DNA from: Actinoplanes missouriensis 431
GTDB taxonomy: Bacteria > Actinomycetota > Actinomycetes > Mycobacteriales > Micromonosporaceae
DNA: 64,000 nt
Assembly (NCBI RefSeq): GCF_000284295.1
Contig: NC_017093.1
Coordinates: 4,464,001 to 4,528,000, forward strand
Direction: 5' to 3'
Shown here: in pieces, positions 8,844 through 11,317 of the stretch
Layout: every line of letters starts with the position of its first letter
Position numbering within the stretch: the first letter of the stretch is position 1
Made by a program: the position numbers and the translations under genes
The notes under the pieces: generated by a model
Told to the model about the DNA's origin: nothing
The model's database searches: none
Seen by the model: only the letters and a program-made list of their open reading frames with translations

Positions 8844-9905
8844 TTGACTTCTAGACGCGTTCTGATCGTCGCGGCGCCGCTGCTCGGGCACGTGTTCCCG
8901 CTCGTGCCCACCGCCGCGTCCCTGCGCAAGGCGGGACACGAGGTGCTGGTGGCCACGGCCGCCGAGGCGCTGAAGGTCCCGCTGCCCACCCACGACATCG
9001 CCCCGGGTTTCCGGTTCGGCCCGGTCGCGGCCGGCGCCATGCTCCGCCACCCGCTGCGCATCCGCGCCGAACTGTCCGGCACCGCCGGCACCGAGATGGT
9101 CGGCGCCCTCTTCGGCGCGGTCAACCGCAGGCTGCTCCCCGGTCTCCGGACCCTGGTCCGCGAGTGGCGACCGGATCTGATCATCCACGAGCCGCTGGCG
9201 GCCGCCGCGGCGACACTGGGCGTGCCGACCGTCCTGCACGAGAACTCGCTCTACGCCGGCCCGCCGCTGGTCACCGCCACCGCCGGCGACGTGCCACCAC
9301 CGGTCGCCACGATCACGATCGCCCCGCCCAGCGTCGCCGGTCCCCGGGCCGGGCTGCCGATGCGCGCGGTCCCGCACGGCCTCGACGACGCCCTGCCCGG
9401 CTGGCTCACCGAGCCGTCGCCCCGCCCGCGCGTCCTGGTCAGCCGCAGCACGGTGACCCAGCCCGGTCCGGAACGCCTGATGAGCCGCGTGATCGCCGCC
9501 GCCGCGTCGATCGACGCGGACTTCGTGCTGGTCCGGCCGGACGCGCGGGCGGCGGCGCAAACCCTTCCCCCCACGGTACGGGTGACCGAGTGGCTCCCGC
9601 TCTCCCCCGCGATGGCCGTCAGCTCCGCGATCATCCACCACGGCGGGGCCGGGACCGTGCTGGCCGCCCTCCACGCCGGCATCCCCCAGCTGGTGGTCCG
9701 CGGCGCCGGCGACCGCCGCCACAACGCCGAGCTGGTGGCGGCCCGGGGCGCGGGAATCGCCGTCGACGGCCGCCAGGTCGGTCCGGAAGTGATCAGCCGC
9801 CTGCTGACCGACGCGTCCCTGGCGTCAGCGGCCCGCGAGGTGAGCGCGGAGATCGCGGCGATGCCGCACCCGGACGAGGTGGTCGCCGACCTGCCCGGCC
9901 TGTAG
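8844..9905 (+). CDS. Macrolide-type (GT1) glycosyltransferase
   Basis: 353 residues from a TTG start. The N-terminal Rossmann half starts RRVLIVAAPLLGHVFPLVPTA, where the GH motif is the conserved acceptor-side His. The C-terminal half carries the nucleotide-sugar motif HHGGAGTVLAALHAGIPQLV and the following RHNAELVAARGAG. It is shorter than most antibiotic glycosyltransferases (about 390-420), mainly in the central linker. Such enzymes attach sugars to polyketides or other small molecules; no biosynthetic cluster surrounds it, so a detoxification role is as likely as biosynthesis. Confidence 0.8.
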   Translation: MTSRRVLIVAAPLLGHVFPLVPTAASLRKAGHEVLVATAAEALKVPLPTHDIAPGFRFGPVAAGAMLRHPLRIRAELSGTAGTEMVGALFGAVNRRLLPGLRTLVREWRPDLIIHEPLAAAAATLGVPTVLHENSLYAGPPLVTATAGDVPPPVATITIAPPSVAGPRAGLPMRAVPHGLDDALPGWLTEPSPRPRVLVSRSTVTQPGPERLMSRVIAAAASIDADFVLVRPDARAAAQTLPPTVRVTEWLPLSPAMAVSSAIIHHGGAGTVLAALHAGIPQLVVRGAGDRRHNAELVAARGAGIAVDGRQVGPEVISRLLTDASLASAAREVSAEIAAMPHPDEVVADLPGL

Positions 9906-10018
9906 GTCCGGCGTCTCAGGCCGCTCGGAGACGCCACCCGATCGCCGATGCCGCGTCGCCACCGCCGGATCGCCGCTGCTTGCCGCGACGTACCGGGGCT
10001 GCGGCTGACCGGCCCGGC

Positions 10019-10257
10019 GAGCCGTAGCCCACGCAGGTAAACCCACCGGCGAACCTGCACCAACTACGGCCGGGAGCGCCGAGCCGTAGTCCAGGCAGGC
10101 AAAACACGCCCAGAACCTGCTTGGACGACGGCTCGCGGCCCCGAGCCGTAGCTCCGACAGGTGATCAAGCCGTCATAACCCGCGCCAGCGACGGCTCGCG
10201 ACGCCGAGCCGTCGCTCCGCCATGTGATCAAGCCGGTTTTCCTGCGCCCGCTACGGC
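10019..10257. repeat. Four-unit array of palindromic elements
   Basis: Four consecutive units of 52-55 bp (10019-10070, 10081-10134, 10143-10197, 10206-10257) each begin GAGCCGTAG or GAGCCGTCG and end in the complement CTACGGC or CGACGGCTC. They are separated by 8-10 bp GC spacers that resemble each other (cgggagcgcc, gcggcccc, gcgacgcc). Units 1 and 2 add inner arms GCAGGT/ACCTGC; units 3 and 4 share GTGATCAAGCCG in the loop. Each can fold as a long hairpin. They lie in a 419-bp gap (9906-10324) without a gene between two converging genes. Confidence 0.75.
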
Positions 10258-10295
10258 CGAGGGCGCCGACCCAGCCAGAGCGACCGCCCTCAGCC

Positions 10296-10343
10296 GGTCA
10301 CCCCAGCACGTCACCCCGGCAAGGTCACCCCAGCACGTCACCC
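10296..10343. repeat. 27-bp-spaced direct repeat over the SMP-30 gene end
   Basis: GGTCACCCCAGCACGTCACCC occurs at 10296-10316 and again at 10323-10343, identical over 21 bp. The second copy holds the last codons and stop of the SMP-30-like gene (minus strand), so the gene end is duplicated downstream, in frame. Confidence 0.7.
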
Positions 10344-11317
10344 GTGTCCAGGATCGCCACGTCGTTTTCGGTCAGGCTCCCGACGACCACGACGCCGTCC
10401 CGCTCCGCCACCGACGTGACGAATCCATACGACCCGTCCGAACTGCGCCAGTCGTGCACCCGCTTCCCCTCCATCGTGAACGCCATCACCCACGCGATCG
10501 GGGTGGCCGCCGGCCGTACCCTCTCCGGCAGGTTCCAGACCAGCACCCGCAGCAGTCCCGGCATCGGCAGCAGGCGATCCACCAGCGGGTTCCGGGGCGC
10601 GGCGATCGCCACCCAGAGCAGCCCATCGCTGCCCAGTGACATGTTGTCCGGAAAACCGGGAAGGTTCCCCACAAGCGTGTCGGTGCGACCGGCATCCGGC
10701 CCGGTCAGCCAGTGCCGCCGGATCCGATAGCCGGCCGTCTCCGCGATCAGCAGGTGGGACTCGTCAGGGGCGAGAACGACCCCGTTCGCGAATTTCAGAT
10801 CGGTCAGCAGCGTGGTCACGGTCCCGTCCGGGGCACGCCTGACCAGCCTGCCGGTGCAGCTGTGCTCGAGGATGTCACCGGTGTGCTCGTCGAGGGCCCA
10901 CCGGCTGGTCGACGTGGTGAACCAGATCGTCCCGTCGCTGCCGGCCACGACGTTGCTGGCGAACCGGTACCCGGGGCTGACCAGGGCGGAGATCTCCCCG
11001 TCCGGGCTCATCGACAGCAGTCCCCGATCGTGGTCGCAGATCAGCGCTCCCCCGCCGGCGAGCGGCCACAGCCCCAGCGGGCGCCCGCCCGTCGACGCCA
11101 GCACCGCGCTCGTCCCGGTCGCCGGGTCGATCCGCACGACGGTCCCACCGGCGAGACCTGTCATGATCCGCCCGGCGTCGTCGAAGCGGACGTCCTCGGG
11201 TCCGTGTCCGCCGGTCGGCAGCCTGCGGCTGATCCGCAGCGGCGCGGTGGGCCCCGGATCGGCGAGCCGGGGCGGCGTCCACCGCCGGGGTCTGATCAGG
11301 CGACGAGCCATCAGCAA
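10325..11317 (-). CDS. SMP-30/gluconolactonase/strictosidine-synthase-like protein
   Basis: 330 residues. Beta-propeller strands recur with the pattern G..DGxIWF/LWV: GPEDVRFDDAGRIMTGLAGG, SNVVAGSDGTIWFTTSTS, FANGVVLAPDESHLLIAETAGYRIRRHWL and GFPDNMSLGSDGLLWVAIAAPRNP. The last two are the typical strictosidine-synthase-like C-terminal strands (Asn-Gly and Asp-Asn calcium ligands). The family hydrolyses lactones or esters using a bound divalent cation. No signal peptide seen. Upstream on the same strand are a histidine phosphatase (21 bp) and an SDR, suggesting one transcription unit. Confidence 0.75.
   Translation of the reverse strand: MLMARRLIRPRRWTPPRLADPGPTAPLRISRRLPTGGHGPEDVRFDDAGRIMTGLAGGTVVRIDPATGTSAVLASTGGRPLGLWPLAGGGALICDHDRGLLSMSPDGEISALVSPGYRFASNVVAGSDGTIWFTTSTSRWALDEHTGDILEHSCTGRLVRRAPDGTVTTLLTDLKFANGVVLAPDESHLLIAETAGYRIRRHWLTGPDAGRTDTLVGNLPGFPDNMSLGSDGLLWVAIAAPRNPLVDRLLPMPGLLRVLVWNLPERVRPAATPIAWVMAFTMEGKRVHDWRSSDGSYGFVTSVAERDGVVVVGSLTENDVAILDTGDVLG

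Follow-up and report, generated by a model that had tools for sequence, protein, structure and literature searches.

MITEs are short, non-coding elements with inverted ends that are found in high copy. REP and BIME sequences are short intergenic palindromes, present in many copies and either single or clustered, for which GTAG and CGTC super-families have been described, and they lie mostly between convergent or co-directional genes, downstream of coding regions (PMC3733652). The CGTC super-family has no dedicated transposase, and how families of this kind spread is left open (PMC3733652). The unit length is set at 20–40 (50) bp (PMC3733652, PMC8266576), and the spacers of REP dimers are mostly 20–100 bp, with 1–2 bp in a few families (PMC3733652). 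REPINs are REP doublets tied to a RAYT, in which two highly conserved inverted ends flank a more variable middle; they are predicted to form a single hairpin and are dispersed as a unit (PMC3116915). REP-type palindromes have been described mainly from Proteobacteria, tied to RAYT, while the family reported here is actinobacterial and abundant, with no Y1 gene found. The strings 'Actino' and 'Streptomyces' do not occur in the main text of PMC3733652, and among open-licence papers on REP or palindromic repeats in Actinoplanes, Actinobacteria, Streptomyces or Micromonosporaceae, taken by title and start of abstract, the family is not described.

The window, the whole 64,000-nucleotide stretch that was analysed, covers bases 4,464,001–4,528,000 of a single contig of 8,773,466 bp (genome G000). 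At 10019–10259, between two convergent genes, are four imperfect palindromes of 54, 54, 55 and 54 bp. The initial annotation had already recognised four palindromes with common ends, though it placed the end of the array at 10257 rather than 10259 and gave spacers of 8–10 bp, where all three are exactly 8 bp. Unit 1 (10019–10072, minus strand, 54 bp) is of the GCAGGT/ACCTGC core type, has a matrix score of 54.5 and is a match to the element model; it is followed by spacer 1 (10073–10080, GGAGCGCC) and by unit 2 (10081–10134, minus strand, 54 bp, score 55.8), which is the most perfect hairpin of the four. Beyond spacer 2 (10135–10142, GCGGCCCC) lie unit 3 (10143–10197, plus strand, 55 bp, score 60.8, also a model match) and unit 4 (10206–10259, plus strand, 54 bp, score 54.6), with spacer 3 (10198–10205, GCGACGCC) between them. 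Both are of the GTGATCAAG core type and, as had been pointed out, they have a sequence in common, GTGATCAAGCCG. The strand assigned to each unit is that with the better matrix score. Each of the four units opens with GAGCCGT[A/C]G and has C[T/G]ACGGC two bases from its other end. The array is not a chance arrangement, since its units score 54.5–60.8 with a matrix made from 70 family units, the four window units included, whereas nothing in 140 kb of control sequence from the same genome exceeds 7.9.

The upstream gene (ORF 8844–9905, plus strand; our gene caller starts it at 8892), which we take to be glycosyltransferase-like, has its stop 113 bp before the array. The downstream convergent gene (ORF 10325–11317, minus strand), presumably SMP-30-like, has its stop 65 bp past the array end. 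Relatives of its protein at 20 named loci are 46–75% identical; the eight best named relatives are all from Actinoplanes/Paractinoplanes, as are 10 of the 20 overall. An identical pair of 21-bp direct repeats, GGTCACCCCAGCACGTCACCC (10296–10316 and 10323–10343), lies between the array and the end of this gene and reaches into it.

With the window array as query, at least 55 places in the genome match at E<=1e-3, one of them the array itself; 40 of the 195 candidates were scored. A reading as repeats depended on there being copies at other intergenic sites, and many are present. A matrix scan of the window and 53 fetched loci, with a cut-off score of at least 18 (control maximum 7.9 in 140 kb), gave, for these 54 loci, 117 units in 56 arrays, of which 14 are single, 26 double, 13 triple and three quadruple. 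The gap between units is 8 bp in 58 of 61 cases, the others being 14, 18 and 19 bp, and the period is 62 or 63 bp in 56 of 61. The units found by pattern numbered 84, with a length of 54–55 bp in 78; removal of two non-members left 82, and 70 entered the alignment, which excludes duplicates, odd lengths and some others. Looser patterns gave mostly background in coding DNA (233 matches vs 169 for a reversed control). There are two core types, GCAGGT...ACCTGC and GTGATCAAG, each in either orientation. Single units and arrays start and stop at identical unit borders. Neighbouring 8-mers agree at 4.75 of eight positions within a locus vs 3.70 between loci, as tandem duplication predicts, and some spacers are identical within one locus.

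Among the 70 aligned units G3, C4, C5, G6, G9 and the five mirrored positions are invariant, and the unit ends, GCCGTAG...CTACGGC, are conserved as sequence. Because the first selection had used the ends, units were picked again by the inner 33 columns alone; the ends GCCG...CGGC are kept in 98 of the 105 units obtained in this way, a few of which may be chance, the cut-off of 17 being barely above the control maximum of 16.6 (three control loci). GTAG, which is present in both arms and pairs with CTAC, varies, with another base at its A in about 14% of the units picked by the inner part. No covariation was found: 77.4% of cells are paired vs 78.3% when shuffled, the covariation score is 0.130 vs 0.145, and RNAalifold keeps six pairs. 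Intact ends in 98 of 105 units, with pairing that does not exceed the shuffled level, point to conservation of the ends as DNA sequence, and the inner mismatches are uncompensated. Rfam has no family for the array, its two sub-threshold matches both lying outside it, so that neither base-pair covariation nor an Rfam family marks the array as a structured RNA element. Folded singly as RNA and compared with shuffles, units 1 and 2 give z-scores of -3.3 and -7.1 on the plus strand and unit 3 a moderate -2.2, while unit 4, on the plus strand, folds no better than shuffles (z -0.5). The array as a whole folds far better than shuffles (z -9.4), because unit ends (10010–10143) are able to pair across spacers and across units too.

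The element model R1 has matches in nine of 60 genomes, our own included, and none in 51: 39 in G015, 19 in G026, five in G008, two in G007 and one in each of four genomes, the weak single matches being possibly due to chance. In G075 it has at least 150. A junction pattern occurs 89 times in G000, 124 times in G075 and 20–52 times in each of the 65 remaining genomes of the genus, against 4–19 for the reversed control; G015 (48) and G026 (39) are not set apart by it. Among fetched loci the 8-bp gap stands out in G000 (72), G075 (22) and G015 (19), while in G026 a gap of 8 is found in six cases and one of -2, at which the unit ends are fused, in seven. Unit lengths of 54/55 bp stand out in all four genomes, although a model built for this length had been used to select the loci, which makes the gap the more independent sign. 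Both the unit length and the 8-bp gap are found again in G075 and G015, and with less clarity in G026. The consensus unit sequences differ between species, so that a rigid spacing rule is common to species with different units. Some arrays are beside the same genes: behind what we take to be a purH-like gene in G000 and G026, behind another shared gene in G000 and G015 (18 and 9 bp past the stop) and upstream of one shared gene in G000 and G075. At these shared genes the units are of each species' own type, which may reflect independent insertion or concerted change.

How do these units compare with the described systems? They are palindromic, extragenic and in many copies, and lie mainly between convergent or co-directional genes (33 arrays convergent, 16 tandem); like REP/BIME sequences (PMC3733652), they are short palindromes at gene ends, single or clustered, and no dedicated transposase was found for them, which recalls the CGTC super-family. 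They differ in being 54–55 bp rather than 20–40, in holding GTAG within the stem at both ends rather than having an unpaired tag, GTAG or CGTC, at a single end, and in gaps fixed at 8 bp where most are 20–100 bp (PMC3733652). The resemblance to REP/BIME put forward in the initial annotation is right in kind, these being dispersed extragenic palindromes, but strict REP membership fails. With REPINs (PMC3116915) they share a pair of conserved inverted ends with a more variable stretch between; unlike REPINs they come in tandem at 8 bp with no Y1 gene found, and they are shorter. With the TnpAREP/REPtron system (PMC8266576) they share the conserved tetranucleotide GTAG, here as GCCGTAG, although no TnpAREP was found and the Actinoplanes GTAG is paired and variable.

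A search for Y1 transposase/RAYT (PF01797) gave nothing in five genomes, our own and four relatives with element-model matches, while the positive controls were found in five of 14 control genomes. The absence of a visible RAYT noted initially thus extends to the whole genome and to four related ones, and neither a cognate RAYT nor RAYT as the mobiliser fits these five genomes; a RAYT may have been lost earlier. The reading that we favour, and to which we give about an even chance, is that the four units of the window array belong to a REP/REPIN-like family of palindromes that are short, non-coding and non-autonomous and that spread without RAYT.

Of the 56 arrays 55 are intergenic, and in the exception one unit overlaps a called gene end by about 22 bp. 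With genes called by our own codon-usage caller, 33 arrays are between convergent genes, 16 between tandem and six between divergent genes, and one overlaps a called gene. In the background, the 140-kb control plus the 64-kb window, there are five convergent gaps among the 50 that measure at least 150 bp, including the gap that holds the window array itself; the convergent excess has a Fisher P of 6e-8 against these gaps and of 1e-8 against all 171 gaps (31 convergent). In G075, with the caller trained on G000, 12 of 21 arrays at 20 loci are convergent. Such placement, together with a median distance of 110 bp to the nearest gene 3′ end (49 arrays having one), would suit bidirectional transcription terminators or 3′-end stabilisers, that is, RNA hairpins selected at convergent gene ends. 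The good folding of several units and of the whole array, and the arrays behind stops of orthologous genes in G000/G015 and G000/G026, also point this way. We consider this unlikely nonetheless: the pairing shows no covariation, unit 4 folds no better than shuffles, six arrays are divergent, no terminator-like site was found in the region, and at the G075 locus L131 a separate hairpin can be seen by eye between the upstream stop and the unit. Nor is there the T-tract that follows the GC-rich hairpin of an intrinsic terminator; T is in fact rarer after the units, with at least three T in the best 8-nt window on eight of 234 unit sides vs 122 of 700 control windows. RNA end protection, an early suggestion for the array, accordingly finds no support in covariation or a T-tract, and in reading Actinoplanes gene ends such arrays could be mistaken for terminators. 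By eye, several G026 arrays (L099–L103) show a T-run, then an array ending CGGCTAGCCG, then an A-run, the reverse of the order in an intrinsic terminator. End sequences conserved without covariation would also be expected if dyads conserved in sequence, and set at a constant interval between convergent genes, formed a binding array for a chromosomal protein concerned with the nucleoid, topology or boundaries, and the fixed 8-bp gap, the period of 62–63 bp (by arithmetic about six helical turns) and the same architecture in other species agree with this. The lack of a model match in 51 of 60 genomes argues against a core function, however, 14 of the 56 arrays have a single unit, and we know of no such protein; we regard this explanation as very unlikely.

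Two further explanations concern the moving element. Similarity of the flanks to another array is lacking in 21 of 56 G000 arrays, that of the window included, is confined to one side in 28 and extends to both in seven. In G075, which holds near-identical, almost perfect palindromes and is therefore a species where movement could be caught, 44 pairs among 93 units, over 16 units, are at least 96% identical. An ungapped test put both flanks below 50% in 33 of these 44 pairs and suggested units moving alone; gapped BLAST reversed this, with flank similarity in 40 of 44, a result that lowered our confidence in the REP/REPIN-like reading and raised that in a larger element. The unit is found in many contexts, but the near-identical G075 copies mostly lie within longer repeats, a composite being visible in alignments, and the last mover there may have been longer than the unit. 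Such an element would be a non-coding repeat, modular in build and a few hundred bp long, with the unit array as one part. The shared flanks of those pairs, a composite of about 420 bp that encloses the unit in G075 and has 105 matches in that genome, and a second repeat that begins at a constant spacing from the edge of the unit at 11 of 53 G000 array loci all favour it, but that junction is absent from the other 42, several of the second-repeat matches, among the matches listed, are away from known arrays, the flank similarity in G000 is as patchy as given above, and single units and arrays have identical borders; on balance we think it rather improbable. The second repeat family is itself non-coding, CAATGCCACT...TTGATCTCC followed by a minisatellite and then a GCACGGAAACGGTTCGTGTGC core, and it matches at least 60 places in the genome, with 40 of 119 candidates scored; where it adjoins arrays it starts 6–9 bp from the unit edge (L032:3205-3560; also L031, L035, L037, L042, L043, L044, L048, L050, L059 and L110). 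The G075 composite (L129:1380-1800 and similar loci) is made of the unit and GTGTCGAGTT...AAATCGACAC blocks. The units are also like MITEs in being short, non-coding, with inverted ends and in high copy, and in a MITE of a classical DDE transposon an 8-bp target duplication, a typical length, would account for the 8-bp spacers, some of which are identical within a locus. Yet around 32 single G075 units the left and right 8 bp agree at 2.69 positions vs 2.55 shuffled, none exactly, and target duplications of k=2 to 10 show no excess beyond about two standard deviations. No parental transposon was found: no long element emerged from the exact matches to half-units in G075, 23 of them forward and 28 reverse, and three unpaired ones that were fetched all lay within full units. 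We hold this origin to be highly improbable.

Comparison of occupied and empty sites, proposed initially, gained little, as no clean empty site was found: the upstream protein of the window has no match at E<=1e-5 in 16 loci (L009–L024), the neighbour of the gene at the L034 array was found only in G000 (one of 30 loci with short flanks), and two G075 composites that lack the unit also lack neighbouring bases. The early proposal of a mobile element is supported by the dispersal to 56 arrays, 21 without flank similarity; its moving enzyme and moving unit are putative.

For a REP/REPIN-like family spread without RAYT, then, speak the 55 of 56 intergenic arrays, 33 of them convergent, the 58 of 61 gaps of 8 bp, the 21 of 56 arrays without flank similarity, the ends intact in 98 of 105 units with pairing no better than in shuffles, the failure to find Y1 in any of the five genomes, the greater likeness of 8-mers within loci, the near-identical palindromes of G075 and the same architecture in other species. 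Against it stand the lack of a mobilising gene and of a clean empty site, and the flanks shared by 40 of 44 G075 pairs and, on at least one side, by 35 of 56 G000 arrays. In such a family a trans-acting protein would recognise the inverted GAGCCGTAG ends and would have inserted copies of single units or short arrays elsewhere, leaving no target-site duplication; since no RAYT/Y1 gene was found, this protein is probably of another kind. Tandem duplication of a unit together with its spacer would let arrays lengthen or shorten, the arms of the units would decay with age, and copies would persist mainly behind stop codons, where they do no harm to promoters or genes. The arrays may also influence transcripts ending there or be bound by a chromosomal protein, and copies beside the same genes across species could reflect a function of the site and not tolerance. 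Least accounted for is the strict 8-bp gap: tandem duplication alone does not explain it, and either the mobilising complex or a binding protein may impose it. More speculatively, and with considerable doubt, Actinoplanes may hold a fast-changing two-part system in which 54–55-bp units exactly 8 bp apart are spread by a protein unrelated to RAYT, the recognition sequence shifting between species while the spacing stays, and this would give species-specific units beside the same genes.

The units and tRNA 5′ ends have TAGCTCAG in common; an origin from tRNA was considered and rejected, the match being taken as a short coincidence. ARAGORN made five tRNA calls on the fetched loci, of which the Pro call looks spurious. 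Half-units (CCTGCGTGGGCTACGGCT), as direct repeats at about 30–33 bp, half the full period, adjoin the arrays at L039, L040, L041, L065, L066 and L113.
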